From Pyropia yezoensis (Eukaryota > Rhodophyta > Bangiophyceae > Bangiales > Bangiaceae), in contig CM020620.1 of assembly GCA_009829735.1 (NCBI GenBank), positions 6,209,545 to 6,273,544 of the forward strand: DNA of 64,000 bases. The letters are read 5' to 3'. The translations under genes and the position numbers were made by a program. How positions within the stretch are numbered: position 1 is the stretch's first letter; every line of letters begins with the position of its first letter. Shown one piece after another: positions 10,574 through 44,317 of the stretch. Below the pieces are notes generated by a model. The model was not told the origin of the DNA and did not search any database. It was given only the letters and a program-made list of their open reading frames with translations.

Positions 10574-10577
10574 CTAG

Positions 10578-10591
10578 TGTATATTCTACCG
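10578..10591 (+). repeat. Left TIR of piggyBac copy 1
   Basis: TGTATATTCTACCG, one mismatch to the right TIR. The CTAG target copy precedes it at 10,574-10,577. Confidence 0.8.
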
Positions 10592-11583
10592 CTAGAGAGG
10601 ATTCCAGAATCCGGCCCTGAGGATTCTGGAATCCTCAGGAGAAACGTCGATTCTGACCAGTGTGAGGCACCCGACGGCCAGAAAAAAAAAAAAACTCACG
10701 CCGCGAGCGCGCACACGGACGACACCCTCCGCCGCCAGTGGCGCCAGGCCCCCCCCACTCGGACGCCATCCCCAACCGTTTTCGGACGCCACCGCCCCGC
10801 TGCGGGTGCCACTGCCCCGCCTCGGACGCCTCCCCCCCACCTCAGACGGAGCCTCATCGCCGCGGACACCCCCTCCCCGCCACGGATGCCCCCTCTGTCT
10901 CGTGTGTCGGCCCCCGGCCGTCCTTTCCGGGCGCAGATGGTGCCGGCCGCGGTTGGGCACTCAGCGCGAAGTCTACGGGGCGCCTCCGCGGCGGCCGGGC
11001 AGCCTTTTCTTTCCCTCCTCCCGGCACTCTGGGTCCACGGCGCGACGCACGGACGTGGCATCGCGTCCGCGCGTGGCACGATCGCGACCGTGGAGGGCGG
11101 CACCGGGTGCGGGCGGTTGGCGGCAGGCTCCGGGCGGCGGGCGGCGGGTGGCAGCGGCAGCGGCAGCGGCAGCGGCAGCGGCCGCGGCGGCGGCGACGGC
11201 ATCGGCCGCCGGCAGCGGCAGCGGCGAGCGGCAGCAGCAGGCGGCGTCCGCGGCGGCGGCGGCCATGGGCGGCCGGTGGCCGTGTCCTTCTCCCCCCATG
11301 CGCTTTTGCAGCGGCTTGCGTCCTGTTGCTTGCCGTTGCTCCCATCTGACGGCTCGTTTAAACGCGTTTGTGGGTAACGGCGGTGGAGGGGGCGCCTCCC
11401 CCCCCGTCCCTGGACATCGACTGCCGGGTCGCGCGCCACCCCACCACGTGAGAGTGGCCCCGGTGGTGGGGGTGGTGCCCGCGGTGGTGGTCACCTCGGC
11501 TGCAGCTGGCGGACGTTGCACGGCCAGCAAACTTCTTCTCAAATACTTCCCCGTTAATCCAGTACATTTCTCTGCAATCAAAC

Positions 11584-13953
11584 TTACACATCCAAGTCAT
11601 GCACAATTCGCATGTGCTTCGGGAAGCAGTCGCGGCCCGACTGTGGCCAGCAGCAAAATACTTCGCCCTCGCCGGTCTCCCGGCATCGCGAGCACACAGA
11701 AGTTGAGCGGTTCTGCTTGCAAACCCGGCAGTCGCGTTGAGCCAGCCTCGCGTCCCCACCCTTGCGCTTGAGAGTCGGGACCAGGTGCACACCAACGCCA
11801 TACCGCGCAGGTCCAGCCACGTCCTCCCGCGGCCCATCGGCCGGTGCCGCCCGGCTGCGATAGCCTGAGCTGTCAAACGTGTTCTCAATGAGTTGCGCGG
11901 CTAGGTCCTCGTAGAACTCAGCTTGCGTCAGCTCCGCTGCCGCCCCGCGCGCACCCGTATAGAGCATCCACGCGTCCACAATACAGATTGCCAGCAGGGT
12001 GAGGTTCACTCGCATCGACCAGTTGTGCGTGATGTACTTCCGCTCCAGTTGCAGGTCGTCCTGTCTGCATCGATTGTGGCGGTCGATGGTTGCGCACACA
12101 CTGAAGTACAGCTCAGCAACTTGCGGTTGAGGCACGGTGAGTGAAACGCGCTCCGCATGCTCGCCCGTCTGGCGCCATCGCAAGCGCTCGCACGGTGCCC
12201 CCGGAAGGGTGCTTGATGCCTACGCGATAAAATACCGTCGTTCGCGATCCACCCACAGCACCGCCATCAAGTCCTTGACATTGTCCGCGTTGACGAGCGA
12301 GAAGGAAACGTGCTGCCCGCGAGACTGCAAGGGGATGGCCGATAGGGCGCCCATCGGGTACCCGCGCGTGGCCGTTTTCACCACTCCAACGAACCGCAAG
12401 CCCATTGTGAGGAGCTGTTGAGCAGTGGCAACGCTCGCAAAGTAGCTGTCGGCACAGATGATGCGCTCGGTGCCCGCCCAAGGAGCCACGAGCCTCTTGA
12501 GGACCGTGGTACCGTGCGGCAGGTCCGCGTCGTTGCCCCCGGCAGCCGATTTCTCGTACTCAGCCGTCGTGACTACGCTCAATTTCAGCATAATTCCGCT
12601 TCGGCCGCAGGCGGCATTTTGGATTTCGCATCCATTCTCCGGCTTGCCATCAATTGCGACGTACGCCGGCAGTCCCCGGGAGATCCATTTGCCGCCTTGC
12701 CCGTACCATCTCGACAGAGATTCGTCGACACAAATGGACTCGCTTGGAGGGACGTGAGCAGCCCGGTGCTGGTTGATGGACGCTACAAAGTCATCAATCA
12801 GCTGCCACCTGCTCTGCTCCGAGGCGTCGCTCGCAGTGCCCGTCTGTGCGCTAAAGGTTACACACGACCAAAAAGCGTCAAACCGGCTGCGAGAGAGACC
12901 GGTGCGCTTGCCGAAAGCGGGCGCAGCCAGGTACCTGTTGCGTGCCTGAGTTGCCCACAGGTCCGCGCGGGCGCCAAACTCGAACCGCGTTCCCAACAGG
13001 ATGACCCCGATGAACTTGAGAAGCTCTCTCGTCGACGTGGGCTGCATACCTCGCGAACGTAGCTTCGCGCTCGTCAGCCGCACCATGCGTACGAGCTGAT
13101 TCGGGGGGAACATCGTCAAAAAGTAATCGTAAGGCCGCCGCGACACACCTGGTCCAATGGAGTCGCCCCCCTCGAGAATGTGCTCTCCCATGATGGCGCG
13201 CACCGACCAAGCTTGACGTGGTACTGGTCCACCGACAGGCTCAGTGACAGGTCGCGGTGCCCAGGTCAATGCATGGGCCGTCACGAGCTGGGACGCTGCG
13301 GCGGTTGGCGTTGCTACGGATGACAGGCCACCGGGGGAGCGCGTAGGTAGGGTCGCGGGGAAGGCGCTCCCGTCTAACGAGAGAGTGGTGCCGACCACCG
13401 ACGATGATGCCGGCGTAAGTCTAGGAAGCGACGGAGAAGAGTTGCGTGCCGCTGCCGGGTCGAGCAGTTGAGCACCAGCCCCAAGTAGACTGGAAGGTTG
13501 ACTAGCCGGGGAGTTGGCCTCGATTCGTTGCGGCAACTGGGAGCTGGCGGGGGAAGGAGCTGCTCCAATCTTGACGCTACGCAGGCCCAGAACCTTTTCC
13601 ACCTCTCGGTCCAGCCATTTCCACTTGACCCGCAAGTCCGTCTTGTTCCGGCCACTCTTTGTTTTTCCCTTGACCACCTCGAGCACAGTTCCGGTCACAA
13701 ACGACGTCTTGGCCAGCGAGCCCAAAAATCGTGCGCACTCCGAGAAGTTCGTCTCGTTAATCGCCTCCGTGTGCACCTGCACACCAACCGACAAGTGCAG
13801 GTCTTGTCCTTTGGCCTTAGTGCTGTTGGCAGGGGTAGGGACGGCATGAGCCGGAGCTTTCGACAGCGGAAGAGGAGAGAAGAGGGGGGGGGAGGGCGTC
13901 GGGGGAGGGCGAGGGGGAATGGCCTCGTGGCGGGGGCGGGGAGCTTCGGCCAT
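11584..13953 (-). pseudogene. piggyBac transposase, interrupted by an in-frame TAG
   Basis: This DDD-type transposase would cut and rejoin its element. It is 789 codons from the ATG at 13953, which aligns with the start of copy 2 (MAE versus MGE); an upstream in-frame ATG at 14034 exists. The DDE_Tnp_1_7 core carries Asp in ICVDES (about 410), Asp in CADSYFAS (about 502) and the IDRHN motif (about 624). The C-terminus has a Cys-rich, cross-brace-like zinc domain (CRVC..CSRC..C..H). A TAG at 12,220-12,222 (codon 578) lies between the second and third catalytic Asp, where copy 2 has Ser. Both sides of the stop are in the same frame and otherwise intact, so this is a recent point nonsense change or, less likely, programmed read-through. 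The protein made would lack the third Asp and the zinc domain. Confidence 0.88.
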
Positions 13954-14402
13954 GGGTGGGAAGGGGGGAGCCTGACGAAAAAGGAGAGGGGACAGAACAG
14001 CCAAGTGTGGAAGAGGGAAAGAAAATGTGGCCACAGAAACGAGTACTGTCGGTGATGACAGCGGTGGGTGACGGTGGGTGGGGTCGCAGCACGCCTGGTG
14101 ATCACTGGCGCGTCCTTCGCAGCCCGAGCTTCACCTGGATGCCGTCGCTGCTTCCAAAGACCGCCAAAGGAGCCTCTGGCGTCCCTTTGTGGGGTGTGAT
14201 GGCGGGGCAGCTGCGCGCAAAAGAGAAAACTTTTTGGCGCGGGTTCTCCTCAGCGTGGGATGCACTGGAGTTGCTCCATGGTCAAGTCAAATGCCCTGAG
14301 TCCGTTTCTGGCGTCAGAATGAGCAACGGACCGCAGGAAGTGCGAAAAAACAGGAGCCGAAAAACCGGATTCTAGAATCCGGAGAGGATTCTGGAATCCG
14401 GT

Positions 14403-14416
14403 CGGTAGAATAGACA
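14403..14416 (-). repeat. Right TIR of piggyBac copy 1
   Basis: Reads TGTCTATTCTACCG on the minus strand. The shared CTAG at 14,417-14,420 follows directly, then the left TIR of copy 2, making a 28-bp near-perfect palindrome across the junction. Confidence 0.85.
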
Positions 14417-14420
14417 CTAG

Positions 14421-14437
14421 TGTCTATTCTACTGCTC
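14421..14437 (+). repeat. Left TIR of piggyBac copy 2
   Basis: TGTCTATTCTACTGCTC, perfect inverted match to 18,300-18,316. Two copies of the palindrome GCCTCAAATGAGGC follow within the next 40 bp. Confidence 0.85.
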
Positions 14438-15071
14438 ATCAGCCTCAAATGAGGCGGTCTCCAGCCTCAAATGAGGCTCCGCCCGGATCACCCGAAATCG
14501 TCGATTTTGACCTGTCTGGCAAAGAAGAGGCATTAGGTACCCTCCCCAGACGGCTTCCGCTCGGCCTGTGCCCCCCCCTGTACACCTCCCTCGGCTGCTC
14601 TCCCGCTGTGGGCGCTCCCTACCTCCTCCTCCTCCCTTTGTGCGGCTGGGGCTGGCTGCGGCGGCGGCGGCAGCGGCGACGGCGGCGACGGCGGCCACGA
14701 CGGATCCAGCGTACCACCCGTCGACCCCATACGTTGGTGCTGGGTCGGTCGGCGGCGGTGGTGGCGGACGTGGCCGCGTGTCGGCATAATTGGCGGATGG
14801 CGGCGCCGGTGGGGTCGTGTCCGGCATGGAGGTGACGTCGTACCTGGGGGGGGCGAGGGGGATGACGCACCTTTACGTCGGCGTGGGCGTCACAGGTGCG
14901 TTCCAAGCGGAGACGGTGAGTAGGGGGGATGGCAGCAGACCTGGACGACGGGTGTGGTGAGGGGTGTGCGCCGGCGGTTGTCGTCGCCGTGCGGGCGAGA
15001 GAGTGGAGAGGGGGAGACGGGTGGAGTAGGCGTACAATGGAAGGCCAGTGTGGCAAGTGCGGCGGTAGTGG

Positions 15072-17720
15072 TCATGTTGAGGGCGGCTGGCGGCTCGCCC
15101 AATGAGTGCGGGACGGGCAGAGGGATGGAAGGGGAGGGGGCTGAGGCACGCCAAGGCAGTCAGAACGAAGCGGAAAACCAGAGGTTGACGGACACGCACC
15201 TTGAGAAAGACAACTCGGGGCACATGGCACTATCTTCCACACCCCGCGTCGTGGTTGCTTGCGGGGTGTGCACAGGAAGCATGGTTCTCTCTTCGTCCCC
15301 TCTTGTCCGTCGAGCCATGTCTGAGAACCAAGCTCTGCTGCGGGAATACGCAGTACTTGCGCCATTGCAACGGAATTTAAGGATGACACGTGAGAGAACA
15401 GATCAAAACTACAACCTAGTAAACAATTCTTAATGTCCATCTGATGGACCTCACGCAAATGCTCATCAAGACAAAGACGCCCCGTCTTGGGGGCGCACAA
15501 AAAAACCTCTTCCGTGCCCGGACCGCGGCAGCCCGAGCATACGAGCGAAGACTTGAACCGCTTGCACACGCGACACCCGCGCTGCGCTCGGTGGCCTCCT
15601 TCATCGGCCGACGGGCCTCGGCGCTTGAGGGTGGGCGTGAGGTGAATGCCGACGCCATAGCGAAGTGGCGCGTCCGTGTCCGCTGCTGGAGTGCCAGTCG
15701 TAGTCCCTCGGGCCCTGAGGCCCATGGTGTCGAAGGTGTTGTCGATCAGCTGCGCCGCCAAGTCCTCGTAAAACTGCTTCTGGGTCAGGGAGGCCGTCGA
15801 CCCGCGCGCGCCACAGTAAAGCATCCACGCGTCCACCGCACACATACCGAGCAAGGACATGCTCACGCGCGTCGACCAATTGTGCGTTCCGAGCTTGTGC
15901 TCAAGCCTCAGATCATCCTGCCTGCAACGGTTGTGCCGGTCGATCATGGCGCAGCACTCGTAGTACTCCTGCACCACGCGGGGTAGCCTGACAGTGAGGG
16001 GCACTCTCTCGGCTTCGCCGTCGATCTGCCGCCACCGCAGACGCACGTATGGGTCGCCAGGCAGTGTCGTAGACCTTGACGAAATGAAGTACCTCCGCTC
16101 CCGGTCGACCCACACGACAGCCATGAGGTCAACAGCACCGTCCGGCGTCTGATGCGTGTACGAGGCGTGTTCACCGCGAGTTTCAAACTCCAATTTCGAT
16201 AGATCCTGCATGGGGAACCCACGAGTAGCCGTCTTGATGCAACCAGTGAAGCCGAAACCCATCGCCCGCAGATGGACGGCCGCAGCAACGCTCGCAAAGT
16301 AGGAATCTGCAAAAACGACGCGCTGGGTGCCCGCCCAAGGCCATACCAAGCGCTTGAGGACCACTGTGCCGTGCGGCACTTCTGCGTCACTGGCGTCGGC
16401 CGTAGCTTTCTGGTGGTCCGAAGAGGTCACCACGCTCAGTCGCAGCATGATCCCGCTCCTCCCGCACGCCGCGTTCTGCACCTCACAGCCATTCTCTGGC
16501 TTCCTCTGTATCGCGACGTACATGGGGAGACCGCGCTTGATCCAGCTGCCGCCAAGCCCATACCACTTGCACATTGACTCGTCGACGCAAATGTACTCGC
16601 TCGGTGACACGTGGGCATTTCGGTGATCATTAATGGAATCGACAAAGTCCGAAATTAATTCCCATCGACTGCGCTCCGAGTTGACATCGCCACCGGTTCT
16701 CTGCTCGCTGAAGGTCAGACAGGACCAAAGGGCATCAAAGCGGCCGCGGGAGAGGCCCGTGAGCTCTCCAAAGGAAGATGCCACAAGGTATGGGTTGCGC
16801 GGCTTTGTTGCCCACTGCTCCGCTTGAGCACCAAACTCATAACGAGTGCCCAGGATGATGACGCCGATGAGCTTGAGCAGCTCCCCCCTGGTAGTCGGCC
16901 GCAGTGCCCGCGCCTCGAGCTTGGCCGAAGTCAAGCGGACCATACGCGTGAGCTGGTCCATGGGGAACATAGCCATGAAGTAGTCGTACGCAGTGCGACC
17001 CCTCCCCTCGCCCACCGAGTCCCCGTCCTCAATGATGACCTCCCCAGACAACGTGCGGACCGACCAGGTCCGACGCGGCACGGGACCGCCGATGGGCTCT
17101 GACACAGACCCCGCCGTCCAGGACATGCCATGCGCAGTCGCCGTGGCAGGGGAGGCGGGAGGTGCGCGGAGGGCCGCCGGGGATGCGCTCGGAAAAGCCA
17201 CAGAGGGGGGGGCGGGGGTAGGATGGGAGCCCGTGGTCGTAGACGGAGGGAGAGGAAGAACACCCTGGACCCCAGTCGGCGAGACCATGCCCAGCTGAGA
17301 CTGCAGAGTCCCGGGCGTGCCGTCCTCGACAGCGGAGGGGGTTGAGTCAGCGATGGGCGCGGGGAGAGGACCAGCCTTCACACTCCCCAACGCCAGCGTC
17401 TTGTCCACCGTGTTGGCCTTCACCGCCCACAGCACCCGCAGTTCCGTCTTGCGGCGACCATCTTTCTGGAAGCCCGGCACGACCTCCTGCACCCGGCCGC
17501 TCAGGAGCTTCTTGGACGCCAGCGAGCCAAACAGGCGCGAGCACTCTGCAAAGCTGGTGACGTTGGTCGCCTTCGTGTGGACCTCGGCGCCCACCTCCAG
17601 GCGACGGTCCTTTCCCGGTCCCTGAGGACGCCGGCGAGGACGGGGGGGGCTTGGGATGGGGGCTTGGGTGGCGGTGGGGGTGACAGTGGGCACGCAGCCG
17701 GCAGTCGGGGGCTCACCCAT
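15072..17720 (-). CDS. piggyBac transposase, intact
   Basis: This is the open reading frame of copy 2, 882 residues from the ATG at 17720 (MGEPPTAG). The frame is open further upstream, but that part is Pro/Arg-rich and has no counterpart in copy 1. The N-terminus is Pro-rich and disordered. A conserved block starts near residue 40, and the transposase core spans about 240-620. Catalytic Asp residues are visible in ICVDES (380), FADSYFAS (472) and MIDRHN (594). A C-terminal Cys-rich zinc domain follows (CRVC..CSGC..C..C..H). Compared with copy 1 the stop after the zinc domain is lost (near 15,430), so about 120 extra residues are read through non-homologous sequence. All three catalytic residues and the zinc ligands are present, so activity is plausible. 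Function by family, not tested. Confidence 0.9.
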   Translation of the reverse strand: MGEPPTAGCVPTVTPTATQAPIPSPPRPRRRPQGPGKDRRLEVGAEVHTKATNVTSFAECSRLFGSLASKKLLSGRVQEVVPGFQKDGRRKTELRVLWAVKANTVDKTLALGSVKAGPLPAPIADSTPSAVEDGTPGTLQSQLGMVSPTGVQGVLPLPPSTTTGSHPTPAPPSVAFPSASPAALRAPPASPATATAHGMSWTAGSVSEPIGGPVPRRTWSVRTLSGEVIIEDGDSVGEGRGRTAYDYFMAMFPMDQLTRMVRLTSAKLEARALRPTTRGELLKLIGVIILGTRYEFGAQAEQWATKPRNPYLVASSFGELTGLSRGRFDALWSCLTFSEQRTGGDVNSERSRWELISDFVDSINDHRNAHVSPSEYICVDESMCKWYGLGGSWIKRGLPMYVAIQRKPENGCEVQNAACGRSGIMLRLSVVTSSDHQKATADASDAEVPHGTVVLKRLVWPWAGTQRVVFADSYFASVAAAVHLRAMGFGFTGCIKTATRGFPMQDLSKLEFETRGEHASYTHQTPDGAVDLMAVVWVDRERRYFISSRSTTLPGDPYVRLRWRQIDGEAERVPLTVRLPRVVQEYYECCAMIDRHNRCRQDDLRLEHKLGTHNWSTRVSMSLLGMCAVDAWMLYCGARGSTASLTQKQFYEDLAAQLIDNTFDTMGLRARGTTTGTPAADTDAPLRYGVGIHLTPTLKRRGPSADEGGHRAQRGCRVCKRFKSSLVCSGCRGPGTEEVFLCAPKTGRLCLDEHLREVHQMDIKNCLLGCSFDLFSHVSSLNSVAMAQVLRIPAAELGSQTWLDGQEGTKREPCFLCTPRKQPRRGVWKIVPCAPSCLSQGACPSTSGFPLRSDCLGVPQPPPLPSLCPSRTHWASRQPPST

Positions 17721-18299
17721 GGTGCGTAAAGGAGGGGGAGGGGAGGGGGGGGGGGGGGAAGGTGAGGGGGGAGGGAAGAGCAGGGGGAGGGGGGGGGGGA
17801 TGGGTAGGGGGGGGGGTAAGAGGGGGGGCAGAGCACACCGCGGCCGCAGCAAGGGGAAGGGATGCAGAGGGATGGGGAGCGCTGGTGGTGGGCGCCGGAG
17901 TCCAGAGGAAGGCAGTCCCGGGCAGGCGTGGGAGGTCGGGTACATGGCGCGGACGCTTGCTCCTCTGAGGAGCTCTGTGACGGACGCCGCTGTACAAGCA
18001 CGGAGGAGCGCGCGCGCGCCATCGGCCAAACGGCTGTTGGCCATACTGCAGCTCTTCTGGAAGTGCCCTGCGCTGCGACTGGGACGGCTTCTGCGCCGCC
18101 GGAAGCAGTCGGTGGCGCGAAAAAGAGGGCGCCAACCGATGACAACCCGTCGTCTTCGGGCGCACTCCGGCTCCCCCAAAGGCAAACAGACTGCGCTGAG
18201 TCCGTTTCTGGGGTCAGTTTCACTCTCAGATGAGTGGAAGACCTTGTAAACGGCCGCTGAAAAACCGCCTCAATTGAGGCGAATCGCCCCAAATGAGGC

Positions 18300-18316
18300 G
18301 AGCAGTAGAATAGACA
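18300..18316 (-). repeat. Right TIR of piggyBac copy 2
   Basis: Perfect inverted copy of the left TIR, with CTAG directly outside at 18,317-18,320. Inside it are CGCCTCATTTGGGGCG and CGCCTCAATTGAGGCG. Confidence 0.85.
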
Positions 18317-18320
18317 CTAG

Positions 18321-20016
18321 CACCCTCCACACGGTGCGGCCGCGCAAACAAGCCACCTACACACCCAGCCATCCAATCAAACGACAGTACACATAATCAA
18401 CATGCAAATTGGTCCCCAATGTAAAGTGGCCCCCGTTGGCACCAAATCGGCTGACCGCGAGGACGCGCACCCCAGCCAAGGCGGAAAACTCACAGTGTTG
18501 ACGCAGAGCGGCGTGTCGACGGGGCGGCGCGGGGTCTTCGCTCGCCCACCACGCGGACGTTGGATCATCAGGGATGATATCTGCTGGTGCAGCCACCCCC
18601 GCGGGACCTCATCGCGCGTCACCGCCACAGTGTCATCCGGCAGTGCGTCGACAACAGCTGCTGGAGGGCTCGTCCTCAGGGATGGGTGACCGTTCTTCAA
18701 CGGCCCCCGCCTGGGCATGCCCGCTTTGTAATTGATCCATTCCTCGTGCAGGTGCAGGGCTCGGGACTGGGCTGGCGTGACAGTTCCTCGCCGGAGGTGA
18801 GGAACCCCTGAGGCGAGGAACGCAGGGGGGGCGCTGTCTACGTCGCGGAGGGCGCCCAGCGACCCCCTTGGAGCCGCTCCCGACGTCGGGCCGGGGGGGT
18901 GCCCCCCCTCGAGCGTCTGCACCAACGGGCCCCTTCAAGCCCCTGAGTCCCTCGGAGAAAAGCTCCGCAGTGATTGCCTTTTCCTTCCCCTTCGTGTCAA
19001 CCAACGTCCTCCGGCACAGTCCCTTGCGCACACAGGGGCTGGCTTGCGTGCGGCACTGGGTGGGGGGGGGTGGGGGCGCACCCCGGCGGCGGCGGCATTC
19101 TCTTTTCACCCCCCCCCTTCAACAGTCGTCTGCCCACGACCGCAGAGCGGTGTCGCACCCCTCGGTGGAGGGCGGGGGGAGGGGGGTGGGTGGTGAGCCC
19201 AGAGGCGGCCGACGTATCCGCCCCCGCTGATGCGCTGCGCCGCGGATGGTCGTCATCACTACAACACAAGGCGAGGGGGGGCCGGCCCGAGGGCCTTGTT
19301 TTGCCACAGACCGAGGGGGGGGGGTGGGTTGTGCTTCTCCCCGACCCCGCGTGCCGCCGCCGTGGCACGCTGTCACGGGTGTGGCTCAGGGGCGGATGGG
19401 TTGGAGAGGGAGCGTCGGCGTTGGAGGGGGGGGGGGAGCTGCGCATGCAGTCCCGCCCACCCGAAAGTCTGTCAGGCGCGGGGCGGTACAGTACGGTGTG
19501 CCCAGGGCATACGAAAGGGGGCTACGTAGACCGTCCGGGGGGGTGCTGGCAGTCAGGGCCGCCGACAGCGCGCTGCACCCCCGGGGGGGCCGGGCTCCCT
19601 GTGGACACCCCCATCCGCTGCAGCTGGGGAAGGCTCAGAGGAGCAGCCCCCCGCCGCGCGGAGCGGGGGCTGGCGCAGGTTTCGGGCTCGTACAAAAAGG
19701 CGCAAGGGGGTGGCCGCGATCGGCTGGCGCCAGGTCGGACCGCAAGCTCTGCGGCACCCCGTACATATCGCCATTGTTCTTGCTGCCCCCAACCGCCATC
19801 GCCGTGCCGCGGGGCCACCGCCACGGCGATCTTGAACTCCCTCCCACTACTCGACACCCCCCCTCCCGCCGTGCCACTACACACGGGTTCGCGGTGCGGT
19901 ATCGGTTGGGGTGCGCTTCTTCCCCGACCGCTCTCGCTCCCCCCCCCCCACCGGTGGTGCACCACGCACACCCACCGCCGTCTGCACCCCTTCCTGCCCC
20001 CCAGCTGGTCGGCGCC
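18321..20016. other. Intergenic, no supported gene; upstream region of the ZIP gene
   Basis: Overlapping open frames on both strands lack recognisable domains. The plus-strand frame of the ZIP gene is open back to 19,246, but the upstream part is low-complexity and lacks the signal peptide pattern. No TATA box is evident. A 'gtacagtac' motif lies near 19,485. Confidence 0.45.
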
Positions 20017-21369
20017 ATGGTCCGCCTGGTGGTGCGGACTGTCGCGCTGGCGGCAGCGGCGCTCGCCGTCCTCACCGCCGCGGCCTGCCCGCCGGGCGCG
20101 ACCGCCGCGGCGGTCCGACCGCGCGCCGGCGAGGTCGTGGACAGCGGCCGTGGCCTGTGGCCCCAGCTGGCTGGCAGGCAGGACCACCACGAGGACGAGC
20201 ACCACAAGTGTGACAGCACCACGTGCGTTCGCAACTGGAAACTGGTGTACATTGCGGTGCTCTTCATTGAGGGCGTCCTCGGCGGCCTCGTCCCGTACGG
20301 CCTCAAGTACCTCCCCAGGTTTGACATCGCGCTGCATATGGCCAATGCGTTTTCAGGGGGCATCTTTATCGCCACAGGCATGCTGCACGTCCTCCCCGAG
20401 GCACTCGAGCTGATGGCTGGCGTCGCCCACGACGGGGAGGAGCACGAGGACGAGCCCCCCGCGGGCGGTGAGGAGCACCACGACGAGCACGAAGAGCCGG
20501 GCTTCCCGTCGGTCTACGCCTTTGCCATGGCGTCCTTTTTCGTCATCCTCTTTGTCGAACACCTGCTGCTACGCAAGTACGCGAGCGCCCACGGCCACGC
20601 AGCGCTAGCCGAGGTGGTAGCGGAAAAGGACGTGGACGAGTTTCACGTGCCCCGTCCGGCCGCCGGCCACCCTGACGGCGATGATGCCGCCCGGAAGGAC
20701 AGCTGGGACGATGCTCTTGGCGCCGATGCTGCCGCCGGCGCTGCCGACGGCGGCGGTGGCGCCGACACCCTCGACGCGCAGGTGCAGGCGCAGGCGCGGC
20801 ACCTGGCGCGCATGTCGGGTGGCAGCGGGGCGCGGCTCAGCTATGGCAGCGACGAGTCGTTTGAGCTGCGCCGCCAGACGCTGGCCGCGTCCAACGGGCG
20901 GTTCTTCTCGGCCAACTTTTTCCGCGCCCTCCTGGCCATCGTCGCCGTCGCCCTGCACTCGATGTTTGAGTCCCTCTCCCTGGGCCTCGCGTCGGACTTT
21001 AGCAGCTCTCTCAGCGTCTTTATCGCTATCGCGGCGCACAAGTGGGCAACGTCCATCGCCCTGGGCGTCAAGTGCGAGAAGGAGCAGCTCCGCTTTGGCC
21101 AGTACATCTCCCTCATTGTGCTGTTTGCGGCGGTGACGCCGCTTGCGGCGGGCCTCGGCCTGCTCATTGCGGGCGTCGACACCACCATCCGGGGTACCCT
21201 CTTTGCGCTGTCCGCGGGCATCTTTCTGTACATTGGCGCCTTTGAGGTGCCCGCCGAGGAGTTTATGGTCCACCCGCGGTGGCTGTGGGGCAAGTACGTT
21301 GCGTACATCAGCGGCGCGATTGTCATCACCGGCATCACCGCCATCCTGGTCGTCACGGGCGTCCACTGA
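20017..21369 (+). CDS. ZIP-family divalent metal transporter
   Basis: ZIP proteins move Zn2+, Fe2+ or similar ions into the cytosol across the plasma or an organelle membrane. The 450-residue protein starts at 20017 with a hydrophobic signal sequence (1-32). An external metal-binding-like His/Asp/Cys segment (HHEDEHHKCDSTTC, 57-70) follows. Eight hydrophobic segments are visible, near 75-97, 105-128, 163-186, 304-323, 332-352, 363-385, 392-412 and 426-447. TM4 carries the signature ALHSMFESLSLG (His314, Glu318) and TM5 AHKWATSIALG (His341-Lys342), which fits the ZIP-I group that lacks Glu after HK. A His/Glu-rich loop (138-160) and a long variable loop (187-300) lie before TM4. The gene is intronless. 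The metal is not predictable from sequence. The start is the ATG giving a proper signal peptide. Confidence 0.92.
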   Translation: MVRLVVRTVALAAAALAVLTAAACPPGATAAAVRPRAGEVVDSGRGLWPQLAGRQDHHEDEHHKCDSTTCVRNWKLVYIAVLFIEGVLGGLVPYGLKYLPRFDIALHMANAFSGGIFIATGMLHVLPEALELMAGVAHDGEEHEDEPPAGGEEHHDEHEEPGFPSVYAFAMASFFVILFVEHLLLRKYASAHGHAALAEVVAEKDVDEFHVPRPAAGHPDGDDAARKDSWDDALGADAAAGAADGGGGADTLDAQVQAQARHLARMSGGSGARLSYGSDESFELRRQTLAASNGRFFSANFFRALLAIVAVALHSMFESLSLGLASDFSSSLSVFIAIAAHKWATSIALGVKCEKEQLRFGQYISLIVLFAAVTPLAAGLGLLIAGVDTTIRGTLFALSAGIFLYIGAFEVPAEEFMVHPRWLWGKYVAYISGAIVITGITAILVVTGVH

Positions 21370-22166: not shown

Positions 22167-23093
22167 TCAAGCCCCAACAGCCGCCCGAAAGTCCCGGTAC
22201 GTCATGTTGAGGTCGTAGGTTAGCTGTCGCACCTCATCTTCGTTAAGCTGATACGTCGCTGGGAGGGTCTTGAGCTTGGTGAGCCACTTGGCCAGCGTCG
22301 CCTTCCCATCAAACGTGGCCGGCACGGACGCCACCCGGTCCAACGACTCGGCCACCTGCAGCAGCTGCGGGTACACCTGGTCCACCGCTGTCATCTGCAG
22401 CTGCACCAAGTCCAGGGCGGTGAGGAAGCGCTCACAGCAGTTGAGCAGCGCCCCCGCCTGCGCCACCCCCGCGCCCGCCACGGCGGTGGAGGTGGCCACC
22501 CGCTTGAGCGCCTGCTGCCGCTCCTGGGTGGCAGTCGCCTCGGCCGCTGCAGACGGCACCGCCGCCGTCGCCGCCGCCGTACCCGCACCCGCGGCTGCCG
22601 ACCCCCCCTCCAACCCAACGTGCGTGCCGGGTACGCGCTCCCGGCACAGGCGGATGCGGGCGGCTTGGGCCGACAGCCCGCACTGGGCCCAAAAGTCCTC
22701 GGGGTTGGGCATCTGGTCCGACAGCAGGTCCGCAGTGGACTTGAATTGGGCAATCAGCGTCCGCACCGCCTGCACGTACGCGGACTCCGACACAGAGCCA
22801 CGGCGCCAGGCGCCCTCGAGGGCCTCGGTCGTCTGGATGATGGCGTACAGGTCGGCACGCGTCGAGTGCAGCTGGTACTGCTCATTGTTGTCATGCAGCC
22901 GGATGGGCTGGTCCCTCACCCCCCCCGCCGCCCCTGCCACCGCCGCGGTGCCCACCGGGGTGGTGGTGGTGGAGACGGGCGGGTGCCGCACGCCACCCGC
23001 CACAGAGACGGGGGGGGGGGGCTCCCAGTTGGTCGAGGTGGGTGTTGGCGGCGGCCGCACCGCCGTGCGGGCAGCTGGCCGTGCCTGCTGCAT
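22167..23093 (-). CDS. VPS28: VPS28, ESCRT-I subunit
   Basis: VPS28 is a core subunit of ESCRT-I. It bridges ESCRT-I to ESCRT-II and helps sort ubiquitinated cargo into multivesicular endosomes. The 308-residue protein has the N-terminal core region at about 75-158 (LYAIIQTTEALEGAW, then LIAQFKST and a 'PEDFWAQCGL' block). The C-terminal four-helix domain is at about 218-303 (FLTALDLVQLQMTAVDQVYP, then LDRV, FDGKATLAKWL, LNEDEVRQLTYDL). Family members are usually 210-250 residues; the extra length is a Pro/Thr/Gly-rich N-terminal 65 residues and an Ala-rich linker at 165-215. The start at 23093 (MQQARP) is the last ATG before the conserved part; the frame is open further upstream without conservation. 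No introns are needed. Confidence 0.92.
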   Translation of the reverse strand: MQQARPAARTAVRPPPTPTSTNWEPPPPVSVAGGVRHPPVSTTTTPVGTAAVAGAAGGVRDQPIRLHDNNEQYQLHSTRADLYAIIQTTEALEGAWRRGSVSESAYVQAVRTLIAQFKSTADLLSDQMPNPEDFWAQCGLSAQAARIRLCRERVPGTHVGLEGGSAAAGAGTAAATAAVPSAAAEATATQERQQALKRVATSTAVAGAGVAQAGALLNCCERFLTALDLVQLQMTAVDQVYPQLLQVAESLDRVASVPATFDGKATLAKWLTKLKTLPATYQLNEDEVRQLTYDLNMTYRDFRAAVGA

Positions 23094-23691
23094 CGTAAGC
23101 CTTATCGGCGGGCGGGTCAGTGACAGCGAGAAAGACAGGAGGCGGAGGCGGCCCCCGGTTCGTACAACCAAGACGCCACGGGCGCTCGCCAGTGGGGCAC
23201 GCGACGCGGGGTGCCCACCGCGGCAGAAGGTGGGCGACAGCACCAGACGCGGCAGCAGCACACCCAGGGACTAGGGCACACGGAGGAAGGAAGTGTGGCA
23301 GCAATGGGAGCTTCAGAGGGGACGGCGAAGGTTGCTCGGTCCTGCTGGTGGTCACAGGGAAGGGTGACACGCGGTGGGGACGCTGTCGTTCACGAGTCAA
23401 GAGTGCAGCGCGCGGCGGCGTCCTTGCTGTACAGCACATAGCCGTATTTGAACCACACGTGGCCAAAAATAAATTTAAATACTACACACATTCACTACAC
23501 TATACGGCAGACGACAGAGACTGCATGCAGCCTGGAGCCGTGGGCGTGCACTGCCGCCGCTCCACACCCCCGTCTCTGCCCCTCTCTACCTCTATTGGCA
23601 CCTGCATGGTGCGCACCGAGGTACCATCCCTCTGAAAGCGCACCGAGTACCAGCCGTCTGGGTGCGCAGCGACAGTATCAGCACAGGGCGC

Positions 23692-37590: not shown

Positions 37591-38278
37591 CAAACCCCCC
37601 ACGGACAAACAAGAGGATGGTGTGTGGTCCAACAGTTTCTTGGTCGGGACGGGGACGCAGGGCCAAGCCCCGCTGTCCCTCCCCTTATCCCCCCAGGGTC
37701 CACTCAGAATCTCGCCACTCAGAATCTCCCACCCCAGCACCTGCCCACCGGGCCACACGAAAATTCAAGACGATAAATGCAGAAAACCCTCAAATCCAAG
37801 TTGGATTTACTACTAAGCTAACTATCCCAAACTTAGGGAATATGGGCCCAAATGCAGGGGGAGGAACGGATCAGGCTAGTGGCCTGCCGCCCCTTGCATG
37901 GCACGTGTTGCCCCCCTACCTGGGGGTCAATACTGCCACACTCCCCTCTCCTCAGTTCCGACCGACCCGGTCGGCCCTGTGAGGGGGTGCGTAAACGCAC
38001 GTCTCGGCGTTGGGGGCGCGACTTGCTGTCCCCCATCGAGTACGTAACGCGGATGTGGAGGCGGTCACGTTGACCGCCCCTCTCCTCAAGCTTGCCCACT
38101 CGGCAGCTTGCTCTCCTCATTTCACACCTCACCATCACCACCACCTCCCCTTCACCTTCCACGGGGCCGCCCCACACTGGGGAGGCCACCCGTCTACCCA
38201 CGATCTGAGTCCCCCTCAACTCGAGGCGGGTCTCGTGCAGCTGTAGCGAGGGCGTCTCTTCCCAACTTGGGGAGAGTC

Positions 38279-40222
38279 ATGGCGACCCCGGGAGTGGAGA
38301 CGGACTCTCTTGACGAGCGTATGGAGGACACCACCTACGGTTCAGCACCCGCCGGGACTTCCGGCGGGGGCTCCGCGATTGCTCCGGGGGATGGGACTCC
38401 CGCGTCACCCGGCTTTGGGTTGACGGCGGGATCTCCCCCGGAGGCGGGACAAGTTGTCCCGCGTGAGGCCCTGGGGCGGTGGTTTTACCCCGTTTGGCCT
38501 GTCTATGAGGAGGGGTTGACTGTTCTTCGCTGTAGCCGACTTGGCGCAGCGATGGGTCGGGTATGGGACCGCCTACGGGAGAAGTATCCCCGTAGGGTCG
38601 GGTTCCCTGCCGGCTTCAGGACGGACCAGTTTGCCTTCCTGGACGATGAGAAGGTTGAGGACGTTCAGCGTGCCAAGGCCATGGTGGACCGCGGGGGAAC
38701 TGTCCCGGGTCCCGGCGACTTGCCGACCTTTACTTGGGACGCGGTGGCAACTCGCCCCCCGTACCTCCACGAGGCCGATCCGCACACTCATCACTTTGAT
38801 GCGCGGATGGAGAAGGACTTCCGGCGAGGTCCCTACTTGGTGACCTCGGCTCAACTTGAGTTCCCTCAGCAGTCTGCTGCCAGTAAGGAGCAATACTATC
38901 CGAAGAAGCCCGAGTGGTGGCCTCAAGTTGAGGTCCCCTACGGGTTCCCGGCGTTGCTGCCACGGTTGCTTGACCACTTCGGCTCCGTCATGTTGACGGC
39001 TGGCCCTGATCACCTGGTGTGGGCCATGTTGGGCACCCAGTGGCTCCTCGAGGTCATGTCGACCTGGGTGTCTTGTGTTCAGCGGCGGGGGATGCTCTGG
39101 CATCTCCCCCTCCGGCTTATCCAAGGTTTGGAACAGCTCACCCCTCAGCTAGTTGCTGAGGGGTGCTCATCAGGACAACTCACTCTACTTGAGGAGATGC
39201 TCCGCCTCCACAAGTTTATCGAGTGGGAGAGCATTGAGCACAAGTTGCGCCGCCCCACTCGTGGGCCCAAGGACGATGGCGCACTTCGCCAGTTCGTGTG
39301 GGTCGCTCGTGAACTTCACGACGGCCGTGTGGTCCTACGAGAGGGGTTGGGCATCGGGGACTACCCGTATGCCCCGGGGGTGGATCGCCACACTGCGCCA
39401 CCCCCGGACAAGCCCATAGTTATGGCTGTGCCCTCATATGATGACCATATGACTCAACCTACTGCGGGGGCCCCAAGTCGGGGTCGCAGTTACACCCGGG
39501 TCCCGCCACCTCGGCGTGCCCCTCCGCTTCCTCCGGTCCCCTTCCAGCCGCACGGGAACATCCCGATTAGCGTGGCCGTTGAGTCGTCCACCCCGGTGTC
39601 CCCCAACTTGGGGGCCACCCTCCTGACGGTATACCCCAAGTTGGTGTTACCGCCCACGCTTGTAACCTCAGAGATGATGATCACCACGTTGGTGCGCACC
39701 ATTTCCTGGTTGGCCGCGTCGACCGCAACCCTTCAAACTTCCGAGACTCCTCAACTTGAGGAGCGCGTTCGTACTGCAGTGGCGACCGCGAGTTGCGAGT
39801 CGGTGGCGGAGTTTATGACGGCCGAGTTGGCTCGCATTGGGGCTATTATGCCCCAGCCAGCCCCACTTGGGCGTGGCAAACGTCGTGCGAGCCGGGCATA
39901 CTCGCCTCCTCGCCGTCGTCGCCGACACTCGCGGCGCTCTCCCTCCGTGTCGGAAGGCGAGTTGTCTTACTCCGTCTCGGAGTCCTCGACTCCGTCAGAG
40001 TCGGAGTCGGTCCGGCGTCTGCGTCGCAAACTTGCGCGCAAGACCAAGCAGAAGAGTAGCCACGGTCGGCGCCACTTGCGCGACCGTGAGGGGCGCGACG
40101 GTTCCGACTTGGAGCCGCCGCCCCCTCCGACTGGTGGGGAGCGTTATCGCCGTGGGTCTCGCCGCTCGCCTCTACGTGAGGGCGAGGGCCGTGGGGTGGG
40201 AGAGTCTCGCATGCATGCCTAG
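38279..40222 (+). CDS. Antisense ORF in the 3' region of retrotransposon 1, RS-rich C-terminus, function unknown
   Basis: The 647-residue frame is read opposite to gag-pol and lies beyond the chromodomain. It starts at 38279 (MATPGVETDS). Residues about 60-370 look like an ordered, mostly helical protein with many Trp and Leu (PEWWPQVEVPYGFPALLPRL; QWLLEVMSTWVSCVQRRG). A Pro-rich middle follows. The tail is rich in Arg-Ser and Ser-Glu pairs (RRRRRHSRRS; SVSESSTPSESESVRRLRRK), like SR-type or nucleic-acid-binding tails. There is no zinc knuckle or enzyme motif. Some plant gypsy elements also carry antisense ORFs near the 3' LTR, so this could be an accessory gene; it could also be a gag-like protein of another element or a captured host gene. 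The long uninterrupted frame with sensible composition supports real coding. Confidence 0.6.
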   Translation: MATPGVETDSLDERMEDTTYGSAPAGTSGGGSAIAPGDGTPASPGFGLTAGSPPEAGQVVPREALGRWFYPVWPVYEEGLTVLRCSRLGAAMGRVWDRLREKYPRRVGFPAGFRTDQFAFLDDEKVEDVQRAKAMVDRGGTVPGPGDLPTFTWDAVATRPPYLHEADPHTHHFDARMEKDFRRGPYLVTSAQLEFPQQSAASKEQYYPKKPEWWPQVEVPYGFPALLPRLLDHFGSVMLTAGPDHLVWAMLGTQWLLEVMSTWVSCVQRRGMLWHLPLRLIQGLEQLTPQLVAEGCSSGQLTLLEEMLRLHKFIEWESIEHKLRRPTRGPKDDGALRQFVWVARELHDGRVVLREGLGIGDYPYAPGVDRHTAPPPDKPIVMAVPSYDDHMTQPTAGAPSRGRSYTRVPPPRRAPPLPPVPFQPHGNIPISVAVESSTPVSPNLGATLLTVYPKLVLPPTLVTSEMMITTLVRTISWLAASTATLQTSETPQLEERVRTAVATASCESVAEFMTAELARIGAIMPQPAPLGRGKRRASRAYSPPRRRRRHSRRSPSVSEGELSYSVSESSTPSESESVRRLRRKLARKTKQKSSHGRRHLRDREGRDGSDLEPPPPPTGGERYRRGSRRSPLREGEGRGVGESRMHA

Positions 40223-40519: not shown

Positions 40520-43500
40520 CTACTCCTGCGGGCCCTGTTTGGCCACAGGCAGTGAGGGGAGGCGCCACGCTTCCAAAGCACGCGCCCAAGCTGGGTCGCC
40601 TGCAGGCGGTGGTGCAACTTTGACCACGTCCTGTCCGTTCACTGTGCGGACCCCATCGTCACTTTCGATGGTGAAGCGCCGCCCATCAGTACGAAGGACC
40701 TGGTACGGCCCCTTCGTCTGGAATACCAACTTACCCCCAGTTGGGGTGTGTGAGTGAACCAGCACCCAGTCACCCTGTTCGGGGACATGCTTAGCATTGC
40801 GCACCTTTTTGTCAAAGGTACGCTTGTAGCGCTTTTGTGCTTTGTCCATCTCAGCCCTGAATTTAGGGATGAGGTGTTCAAGCCTAGCAGCGAACTCCGC
40901 CTTACTCTCAGTAGGAGTAGGCGTACTGCCACCATCCTCCCTAGTTGGGAGCGACCGCCGCACCGCTATAGACCGCACGCGGCGGGGGGTCACAAAAGCG
41001 AGGGGTACTTCCCCGGTAGATGAGTGAACCTGCGAATTGTAGGCAGTAGTAAGAATAGAAATGTATTGGTCCCACGTCTTCACGTGCTCACTCACATAGT
41101 GGCGCAGCTGCCTAACAATAGTTTTGTTGAAGCGCTCCACCTGCCCATTAGTTTGTGGGTGGTAGGGGGTGGCATAGTTTGCCTTAACCCCCAACATATC
41201 CAGCACTCCCTGAAACAGTACAGACGCAAATTGCGGTCCATTGTCCGATAGTGTACTATCTGGGATGCCATACGCGGCAACCCAGTGATCTAGGAAGGCT
41301 GACACGACCGACATGGCCGTGATCTCTGCCAGTGGGATCGCTCGCGTAAGTTTCGTGAAGCGGTCACAGATGACCAGGAGGTACTGGTTGCCCTCCTCGG
41401 TCACTGGCAGTGGCCCAAGGATGTCCATCGCCAACGCGGCGAAGGGCTCCTTGGCCGGGAACAATAGCATAGCCGTACTAGGCCGCCGTTCCATCAGACG
41501 GTTCTGTGCACAACTTGTGCAGGCAGCCACCCAACTGTAGATGTCCACCACCATGGACGGCCAGTAGTACCTGGTCCTCAGGGTCTGGTACAGCTTACTA
41601 GACCCCAGGTGTCCACCCGTAGGAGCGTTGTGCTCCCTCTCAAGGATACTGCCCTTGAGGGATGCGGGGACGACAAGTTGTTCGGTCCCCTGGAATACCC
41701 CCCTCCTCATGAGGAGGCCATCGTCTCCCAGGAAGAACCGCGTCTCCGCCACTGTATCCAGTGTATCCCTCTGCGACTTGCAGAAGGGATCCTCGGCCTG
41801 GGCCTTCACCACCTCGTCCAGGGACAGGGGCAAGTACTTCTTGTTCCCTGGCGCCTCGGGGTTCAACGCCTGACCCGAGCGCGTGACTACCCCCACGATG
41901 GGGATGTCCTCATCGACTGGGTTAGTGTCCAGCCCCTCGGTAGGTACCCGAGAGAGGCCGTCGGCAAGGGCATGTTGCCTGCCAGGTCGGTACTCAATAT
42001 CAAAGTTGAAGGGTGCCAGTCGCACCCTCCACCGATTGAGACGAGTGTTAGTACAGTCCGTCTTAAAGATGAACTGCAACGCGCGGTGGTCACAGCGGAT
42101 GAGGAACTTCTCACCCTCCAGGTAGTGACGAAGTGACGTCACCGCCCACACCACTGCGAGTCCTTCCAACTCGGTGACTCCGTAGTTCTTTTCGGCCGAG
42201 TTCAGCCCCTTGCTGAAGTATCCCACCGGCAAGTACTCTTTGTCCGGCTGCTGCTGAAGCAACACACAACCAAGTTGGTCGTAGCTAGCATCCACATCCA
42301 GGATGTAGTGGCCTCCCAACCTGGGAATAGCCAGGATAGGGGGCTTCAGCAGAATGTCCCGAAGAGTCTCAAAGGATTCCTGCTCCACCCGACTTGGGGG
42401 AGACAGGTTTTTCGGGAGCGTTGAGCTCACTAACTCATTCAACGGCTTCGCCACCTTGGCGAAGCCCTTGGTGAAACGTCGGTACACGTTACACATCCCG
42501 AGGAAGCTCCTCACCTGGGTCTGGGTCCGGGGGTACTGAGCCTTACGGATGGCCCTCAAGTTTTTCTCGTTAACACTGAGACGCCCCGGACGGACAACAT
42601 GTCCCAAGTATTCCACCTCTTGAGTGAAGAGGTGGCACTTACTCGCCTTCAGTGACACACCGGCGTCAGCAAGTAGCTTGAACACCTGGCCAAGATGGCC
42701 AATGTGTTCCTCCGGACTTCGGGAGAACACAATGATATCGTCTAGGTACACAAGACAGATCAGCCACCGTACTCCGGCCAGAATCATGTCCATAGCGCGC
42801 TGGAAAGTTGCCGGCGCGTTACACAGACCAAACGGTAGACGCTTGCACTGGTAGGTACCACAGTGACAGGTAAAGGTAGTTTTATGCCTGTCCCCCGGGG
42901 CAATGGGAATTTGCCAGTACCCCGCGTTACAGTCCAGGGTGGAGAACACGTTCGCCTCCCCCAGAGAGTCCAGACAGTCGTCCATCCTAGGTAGGGGATA
43001 ACTGTCCTTCACCGTGCTCTCGTTGAGCTTACGGTAGTCGATACAGAACCGGGGAGTCCCATCAACTTTGGGGACGATAACCACCGGACTCGCCCACTCG
43101 GCGTTGCTGGCCTCGATCACATCGAGGGCCTCCATGCGAGCAACTTGCTCCTTAACGAGGGCCCTTGAACGGGGTCCTCCCCTATACGGTTGTTGGCGTA
43201 TAGGGGGTGCACCGGGCTTCAACTCGATCCGGTGTTGGGTAGCTCTCATGAGTCCCAATTGGCCATCCCACAACTTGTGATATTGGTCCAAGAGGCGCTC
43301 AACTTGAACCCTCAACCTGGGTGGAACACCCTCCATGTTCACATGGGGCCGAGGAGAGGCGGCCGACTTGGCTTGCTGCTTCTCCTTTCCGGACTTCGGG
43401 TCGCTACTTGCGCCCGCGTTGAGGGTGACCGCTACTACCGGTCCCTCGTGTTGGTCGATATAGCCGAACTTGGCTCCCGACTTGAAGTACTGGGGCGACG

Positions 43501-44317
43501 AGCTCAGGTTCATCACCTGGATCCTCCACGGGACTCCGGCTTTGGAGTCCATCGTGCCAAGGGCAACATGCACTTGGTGCTTGCGAGGAAGGCGGGGGTA
43601 AGGGTGCACCAACCCGTTCCCCGTATAATCAGTTACAACGTCAACGTGCGCCACCGAGTTGGGGGGCAACGTGACTTTACGGGCTAAACGCAGGGTAGCA
43701 GTAAACCCTTCCCTCACAGAGCAAATAGGCTTCGACTGTGAGACTGTCACAGGAGCCACAGAATTTCCCATACCAAGGATGGGGATAGTCTCCCCATTCA
43801 TCAACTTGACCCAGTACTCAGGGCCACAAATCAAAGGCACTTGTGTAACAACATAAGGGGTACCCAGAAGCAGGGGTACCGATATATTCTCAACTACACC
43901 ATAGGTCACGTCGACCTCATGGGTCCCCAACCTAGTTGGTAGGGTCACGGCACCAACGATGGGAAGTACCCCACCATTGATGTCAATCATATGGTCAGCT
44001 TTGGACCTCCAGCGTTGGAGCTTCACCTCCTTTGATAATAGCGACTTGCGTATCAAGGAGGCTCCTGACCCGGTATCAAGTACGATACGGGCACAGCAGG
44101 CGCGGCCGGGGGCAAGTTGCACCCGTCCAGCCACCTGGAAGTTCTCACCCGTCAGCACCGCGATGACCCGACGTGGGTTTACGTTCTTGGGGAGTCCTAC
44201 CCGAGGTGGGCGGACTCCCTTAGGTCGCCGCAGTATCCGGCACCGTTTGTTCGTCCTCTTGGCCCACTTGGCCGAGGCTGCCGTTGTGAGCTTCGGACGG
44301 CCAGCTCCAACGGTCAT
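40520..44317 (-). CDS. pol: Pol polyprotein of retrotransposon 1: protease, reverse transcriptase, RNase H, integrase
   Basis: The 1,265-residue polyprotein would copy the element's RNA to DNA and insert it. The aspartic protease has IVLDTGSGASLI (Asp81). The reverse transcriptase spans about 370-560 with FCIDYRKLN, STLDCNAGYWQIP and the catalytic YLDD at 524-527. RNase H follows, with LDVDASYDQLGCVLL. The integrase has an HHCC zinc finger (HNAPTGGHLG...CTSCAQ) and the DDE core (MDILGPLP; LSDNGPQF; HPQTNGQVERFN). RT, RNase H and integrase order is that of Ty3/gypsy. The ATG overlaps the gag stop as ATGA, suggesting termination-reinitiation rather than frameshifting. The frame has no internal stop or shift, so the copy looks young. 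A TAG separates it from the chromodomain. Confidence 0.93.
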   Translation of the reverse strand: MTVGAGRPKLTTAASAKWAKRTNKRCRILRRPKGVRPPRVGLPKNVNPRRVIAVLTGENFQVAGRVQLAPGRACCARIVLDTGSGASLIRKSLLSKEVKLQRWRSKADHMIDINGGVLPIVGAVTLPTRLGTHEVDVTYGVVENISVPLLLGTPYVVTQVPLICGPEYWVKLMNGETIPILGMGNSVAPVTVSQSKPICSVREGFTATLRLARKVTLPPNSVAHVDVVTDYTGNGLVHPYPRLPRKHQVHVALGTMDSKAGVPWRIQVMNLSSSPQYFKSGAKFGYIDQHEGPVVAVTLNAGASSDPKSGKEKQQAKSAASPRPHVNMEGVPPRLRVQVERLLDQYHKLWDGQLGLMRATQHRIELKPGAPPIRQQPYRGGPRSRALVKEQVARMEALDVIEASNAEWASPVVIVPKVDGTPRFCIDYRKLNESTVKDSYPLPRMDDCLDSLGEANVFSTLDCNAGYWQIPIAPGDRHKTTFTCHCGTYQCKRLPFGLCNAPATFQRAMDMILAGVRWLICLVYLDDIIVFSRSPEEHIGHLGQVFKLLADAGVSLKASKCHLFTQEVEYLGHVVRPGRLSVNEKNLRAIRKAQYPRTQTQVRSFLGMCNVYRRFTKGFAKVAKPLNELVSSTLPKNLSPPSRVEQESFETLRDILLKPPILAIPRLGGHYILDVDASYDQLGCVLLQQQPDKEYLPVGYFSKGLNSAEKNYGVTELEGLAVVWAVTSLRHYLEGEKFLIRCDHRALQFIFKTDCTNTRLNRWRVRLAPFNFDIEYRPGRQHALADGLSRVPTEGLDTNPVDEDIPIVGVVTRSGQALNPEAPGNKKYLPLSLDEVVKAQAEDPFCKSQRDTLDTVAETRFFLGDDGLLMRRGVFQGTEQLVVPASLKGSILEREHNAPTGGHLGSSKLYQTLRTRYYWPSMVVDIYSWVAACTSCAQNRLMERRPSTAMLLFPAKEPFAALAMDILGPLPVTEEGNQYLLVICDRFTKLTRAIPLAEITAMSVVSAFLDHWVAAYGIPDSTLSDNGPQFASVLFQGVLDMLGVKANYATPYHPQTNGQVERFNKTIVRQLRHYVSEHVKTWDQYISILTTAYNSQVHSSTGEVPLAFVTPRRVRSIAVRRSLPTREDGGSTPTPTESKAEFAARLEHLIPKFRAEMDKAQKRYKRTFDKKVRNAKHVPEQGDWVLVHSHTPTGGKLVFQTKGPYQVLRTDGRRFTIESDDGVRTVNGQDVVKVAPPPAGDPAWARALEAWRLPSLPVAKQGPQE

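Follow-up and report, generated by a model that had tools for sequence, protein, structure and literature searches.

CTAG as the probable target site of a piggyBac-superfamily transposon lineage in Pyropia yezoensis

Two abutting transposons in a 64,000-nucleotide stretch of the red alga Pyropia yezoensis (the window; C3:6209545-6273544 of an assembly of 107.5 Mb in 11 contigs) belong, in our judgement with high confidence, to a numerous cut-and-paste lineage of the piggyBac superfamily that bears signs of recent movement and whose transposase inserts into, and duplicates, CTAG. TTAA is the target reported for piggyBac generally, with rare exceptions, and for 93% of its integrations in mouse cells. 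The lineage thus shows that a strict target choice of the piggyBac type is able to change.

As the original prediction stated, both elements are bounded by inverse-repeat ends, with CTAG immediately outside at 10574-10577, 14417-14420 and 18317-18320, and this is confirmed from sequence. The outer flanks are unlike, with CA ahead of the CTAG at 10574 and CACC beyond 18320. Element 1 ends at 14416 with CGGTAGAATAGACA, and element 2 starts at 14421 with TGTCTATTCTACTGCTC, whose perfect 17-base inverse lies at 18300-18316. The tip TGTNTATTCTAC, allowing at most one mismatch, occurs four times in the window versus 0.06 times on average in 100 shuffles, and all four occurrences are element ends. 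The layout is as follows.

10574..10577, no strand: left target copy of element 1, CTAG, from sequence
10578..14416, minus (strand of gene): element 1, 3839 bp, with a single in-frame stop in the transposase
10578..10591, plus: left terminal inverted repeat (TIR) of element 1, TGTATATTCTACCG; the repeat pair is 95% complementary
10597..10634, no strand: two sub-terminal near-palindromes, GGATTCCAGAATCC and GGATTCTGGAATCC, at the left end of element 1 (offsets 21, 43)
11584..13953, minus: transposase frame of element 1, stop at 12220-12222
14365..14399, no strand: two sub-terminal near-palindromes at the right end of element 1 (offsets 17, 36)
14403..14416, minus: right TIR of element 1, pairing with the left repeat
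14417..14420, no strand: CTAG common to elements 1 and 2, from sequence; like arrangement at C1:31238877 (L074/L075)
14421..18316, minus (strand of gene): element 2, 3896 bp, transposase open reading frame unbroken
14421..14437, plus: left TIR of element 2, 17 bp, perfect repeat pair
14440..14477, no strand: two sub-terminal near-palindromes (GCCTCAAATGAGGC) at the left end of element 2 (offsets 21, 43)
15072..17720, minus: transposase open reading frame of element 2 from an inner ATG (at 17720), 882 amino acids, from translation
18265..18299, no strand: two sub-terminal near-palindromes at the right end of element 2 (offsets 17, 36)
18300..18316, minus: right TIR of element 2, 17 bp, pairing with the left repeat
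18317..18320, no strand: right target copy of element 2, CTAG, from sequence

Flanks and ends of the elements across the genome

The genome holds 266 occurrences of TGTNTATTCTAC and none of its reversed control. CTAG stands directly ahead of 193 of these tips and TTAA ahead of only one, which is not the target duplication of a canonical piggyBac element; collecting the TIR copies therefore bears out the proposal that CTAG, not TTAA, is the target. The longer 14-mer tip gives a similar picture (CTAG at 139/180), and among 136 distinct ends read as sequence CTAG adjoins 114 and TTAA none. The other 22 ends carry TTAG (5), CTGG (3), CTAA, CTCG and ATAG (2 each) and eight single words, while base composition farther outside these 136 ends is nearly flat. 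The sole TTAA-preceded tip, at C3:28431402 (L157), has diverged inner sequence, and the 72 tips with neither word should include chance sites and mutated flanks.

Convergent end pairs of less than 12 kb number 48, and 84 tips are left unpaired. Both flanks were read in 52 elements, namely 47 of the 48 pairs and five others: CTAG is present on both sides in 36, on one side in 16 and on neither in none, and the next four outside bases are alike in 0/52. Two more short elements (L158 and L159), outside this count, have CTAG on both sides. We also read 30 of the 60 transposase matches in the genome. The common tip lies within the sequence read at 28 of the 30 loci, and the adjoining word is CTAG, save on one side each for CTAA, CTAT, CTAC and CGAG; one tip is cut at the sequence end. 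Since DNA identity between families at these loci reaches only about 70-74% over the best-matching stretches, the CTAG specificity does not stem from a single recent burst.

Short non-autonomous relatives of 239-518 bp, resembling miniature inverted-repeat transposable elements, share the tip sequence and are mostly flanked by CTAG (C2:8904466, C2:19310080, C2:23433109, C2:34109597, C3:16268740, C1:10261543 and others). At C1:22858829-22860890 (L069, L100), a CTAG-flanked element is nested within a larger piece whose two sides carry the same end and whose flanks are inverted repeats, as though an aberrant event had produced it.

Inside the tip, near-palindromes of 14-16 bp recur. Among the 102 ends with 72 inner bases available, 90 have at least one and 51 have two, versus one in 8/102 after shuffling, mostly at fixed, end-specific offsets (+17/+36 or +21/+43). 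Their letters vary by family (element 1, for example, has GGATTCTGGAATCC, element 2 GCCTCAAATGAGGC). On sequence they look like family-specific binding sites, with the tip common to all.

Empty sites, shared junctions and relatives

A comparison of filled with empty sites, which had been proposed as a check, shows, for each of two independent insertions, that the empty site has a single CTAG-like word; CTAG is therefore the target and is doubled on insertion. One of them, at C1:25175629-25179805 (L070), resides in a repeat. Where the filled site reads CTAG, element, CTAG, five paralogues have only the four bases CTCG. Among closer copies, 40 of 1224 candidates were scored (two being the element's own flanks) and 12 fetched, all of which have exactly four bases at the site: CTAG in 6, and CTGG, GTAG, CTCG, ATCG, CTTG and CTAC in one each. 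One empty-site paralogue of this insertion lies in the window, at 38042-38393.

The other insertion, at C3:15473950-15478125 (L119/L120), resides in the reverse-transcriptase reading frame of a retrotransposon that we label Ty3-type from its translation. When the flanks are joined with a single CTAG, the frame stays open. The joined flanks match at 156/156 bases in 25 of the 40 copies scored from 1376 candidates, the remaining 15 matching at 99% over full length, and a single CTAG is present in 8/8 copies read. The exact flank match suggests a recent insertion, consistent with element copies that are 99.7% identical over about 4 kb.

Abutting elements with one common CTAG are also found at C1:31238877, and L081 probably adjoins a diverged end across one CTAG in like manner. 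Such sharing is expected when an element inserts into the target copy that borders a second one, and its recurrence upholds that origin, suggested earlier, for the middle CTAG of the window.

A relative of the lineage is found on a 33 kb contig of a viral collection (L132), whose transposase is 41% identical to that of element 2 and 61% to a Fragilaria protein, and whose GC content is 46% over the 10 kb examined. Upstream of the transposase the contig has CTAG followed directly by TGTCTATCCTCCCG, then GGGGTTAATTAACCCC and GGGGAAAATTAACCCC. Counted from the tip, the 14-base cores begin at 17 and 37 bases, compared with 17 and 36 on the gene's 5' side in both window elements. By sequence comparison, this argues that CTAG use and the end design predate this genome and do not result from its high GC. 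A 61% identical transposase is also present in L133 (JAHDDY010000183.1), filed under a Rhodobacteraceae metagenome-assembled genome, which is probably eukaryotic contamination.

On their right the window elements adjoin a ZIP zinc transporter gene (19246-21369, plus strand) and a VPS28 gene (22167-23261, minus strand). The window also contains two Ty3-type retrotransposon coding regions (40520-45366 and 48752-51739; reverse transcriptase and RNase H in both, integrase parts, zinc knuckle) and a long GC-rich tandem array at 430-1480 with nested periods of 6, 18, 47 and 65 bases.

The transposase and a possible route to CTAG

PF13843 (DDE_Tnp_1_7) is the sole Pfam family in each transposase gene and lies on the minus strand in both elements (E 3.4e-30 in element 1, 5.9e-39 in element 2). 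Against the PF13843 profile the score is 135.8 bits (E 2.9e-39; cut-off 22.4), which places the protein in the piggyBac superfamily; for element 2, the part used in protein comparisons ends at 15417. A catalytic Asp triad (D380, D472, D594), as in piggyBac (D268, D346, D447), is present in 32/32 sequences. D472 aligns to D346 and D594 to D447, the latter within a weak segment, and D380, outside the reported piggyBac segments, aligns to the DE pair of piggyBat. The predicted fold is the solved piggyBac fold, with Tn5 as the next match. The superfamily's C-terminal cysteine-rich domain is retained, with Cys 716 and 731 invariant and Cys 719, 728, 742 and 750 and His 754 and 759 nearly so; the call comes from sequence, and the predicted model is partly low-confidence there. 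In place of the GGVDxxD motif with D450 described for piggyBac (PMC2533014), the sequences read xxIDxHN. The original assignment as piggyBac-type thus stands for the superfamily and fails for the canonical type: the elements are a divergent branch.

Residues of about 37-119 of the element 2 protein (15417-17720) form a predicted extra N-terminal domain, tudor/chromo-barrel-like with a weak Z score, outside the piggyBac-matching part. If so folded, it could bias insertion toward some chromatin.

By analogy with the solved piggyBac structures, the transposase would cut at the tip and make a hairpin through the 4-base flank; opening of the hairpin would leave a CTAG overhang, and the ends would be joined to a melted CTAG target at positions staggered by 4 bases. 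The palindromic overhangs would permit seamless donor repair. The strand-transfer structure of piggyBac shows an unpaired four-base target in which T0 and A3 are hydrogen-bonded N3 to N1, and its authors argue that this bond cannot be satisfied once T0 is replaced (PMC7351741). The shift from TTAA to CTAG may be tolerated because both outer bases change together and remain complementary to each other: the N1-N3 bond that in piggyBac joins T and A at the two ends of the target would be replaced by one from G N1-H to C N3, with donor and acceptor swapped, whereas single outer-base changes would meet two acceptors or two donors. Among 23,417 integrations of Trichoplusia ni piggyBac in HEK-293 cells, however, CTAG was used 9 times, CTAA 110 and TTAG 100 (PMC3499496, Table 1), and the outer-pair rule alone therefore fails to predict the errors of piggyBac itself. 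Altered protein contacts are probably needed as well. The DNA-contacting Asn440 of piggyBac is replaced by Tyr (Y587 in element 2) or Phe in the CTAG lineage, and this replacement is a candidate determinant of the choice; the aligned segment is trusted only because no gap falls between P433/P580 and D447/D594.

Alternative readings and known systems

Several observations weigh against a CTAG-duplicating piggyBac relative. The tip does not adjoin CTAG at 73/266 occurrences, and one side is not CTAG in 16/52 elements; we read these flanks and tips as probable later substitutions and chance tips. The TIR starts with TGTNTATTCTAC and not with the CC[C/T]T reported for piggyBac (PMC2872659). An invariant Asn597 (32/32) occupies the place of piggyBac D450, where D450N impaired excision in cells and D450A is stated to be active in vitro (PMC2533014). 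The link to Asn440 is a correlation, and the HMM segment on which it rests scores poorly (i-Evalue 22). The empty-site searches scored only 40/1376 and 40/1224 candidates, and L132 yields one end only. Finally, CTAG is a palindrome, and hence a 4-base duplication with TGTC tips and a TA duplication with GTGTC tips are letter-identical; the 4-base stagger is taken by analogy from the piggyBac mechanism (PMC7351741).

This last point is what favors the alternative that CTAG is the target while only its central TA is duplicated, with a Tc1-like stagger and an element running GTGTC...GACAC. The 16 one-sided variants comprise 5 outer, 2 element-adjoining, 8 middle-base and 1 double change, and the single changes among the 136 single ends comprise 8 outer, 4 inner and 8 middle, both tilting slightly toward the pattern expected of a TA stagger whose outer base is relaxed. 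The tilt is small, however, and fits random later substitution; in no pair are both flanking words other than CTAG, the cut made by solved piggyBac has a 4-base stagger (PMC7351741), and the predicted fold is that of piggyBac. We consider this alternative improbable. If CTAG were instead a fixed part of the TIR (an element CTAGTGTC...GACACTAG that does not duplicate its target), its presence at 193/266 tips would follow, and a palindrome makes the ends alone uninformative. Yet one CTAG or variant remains in the empty sites of both insertions, and abutting elements share one CTAG rather than CTAGCTAG (14417-14420; C1:31238877), which leaves this explanation hardly credible.

A relaxed NTAN target, dominated by CTAG as a by-product of a GC-rich genome, has precedents in Pokey, about 10% of whose insertions are at TTAT or ATAA (PMC3849761), and in PiggyMac, which cuts a 4-base sequence with central TA (PMC3408717). 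In the window, however, GTAC (220), CTAC (138) and GTAG (134) all outnumber CTAG (61), which is 1.6-fold commoner than TTAA (37); despite these counts, 0/52 elements lack CTAG on both sides, and the L132 stretch with 46% GC has CTAG as well. We judge this account very unlikely. IS5 favors YTAR targets, PF13843 is labelled 'Transposase IS4', and Tn5 is second among the predicted fold matches, so an IS4/Tn5- or IS5/Harbinger-like group unrelated to piggyBac was considered too; the predicted fold being that of piggyBac, we give it almost no weight.

The preferred reading, CTAG duplication by a piggyBac-superfamily transposase, describes the same machine as piggyBac with a different target word. 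Compared with piggyBac (Trichoplusia ni) and piggyBat (Myotis lucifugus), which target TTAA, the elements here have CTAG, the tip TGTNTATTCTAC, Tyr or Phe for N440, Asn for D450 and the extra barrel-like domain. Pokey, of the Daphnia piggyBac family, likewise relaxes the outer target bases and keeps the central TA, but its main target is still TTAA, and CTAG is absent from the text of that study (PMC3849761). PiggyMac of Paramecium makes a similar 4-base staggered cut centered on TA, with TTAA underrepresented (PMC3408717), but is a domesticated host gene whose outer bases are not fixed. Animal piggyBac types with odd duplications (TTAG, CTAA, TATG and others) also depart from TTAA, but are very few among many TTAA types and mostly ascribed to mutation, with CTAG not among the words listed in the portion available (PMC10813416). 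A literature search for a CTAG-targeting piggyBac lineage found none.

We lean toward a CTAG clade in red algae and a second, probably diatom, lineage that has used CTAG since before their divergence, with the outer T-A changed to C-G and the central TA kept. Tyr or Phe would stand in for Asn440, and interchangeable sub-terminal palindromes would distinguish the families; such a clade would be a naturally occurring counterpart of piggyBac that is still active. TTAA targeting is regarded as a defining trait of piggyBac, and the seamless use of that transposon in genome engineering rests on it. A natural CTAG lineage that keeps the central TA is a direct test of the T0-A3 rule as put forward in PMC7351741. 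Annotation that depends on TTAA would overlook such elements, which draw attention to residues with a possible role in target choice and supply candidate transposases for insertion at a different word.
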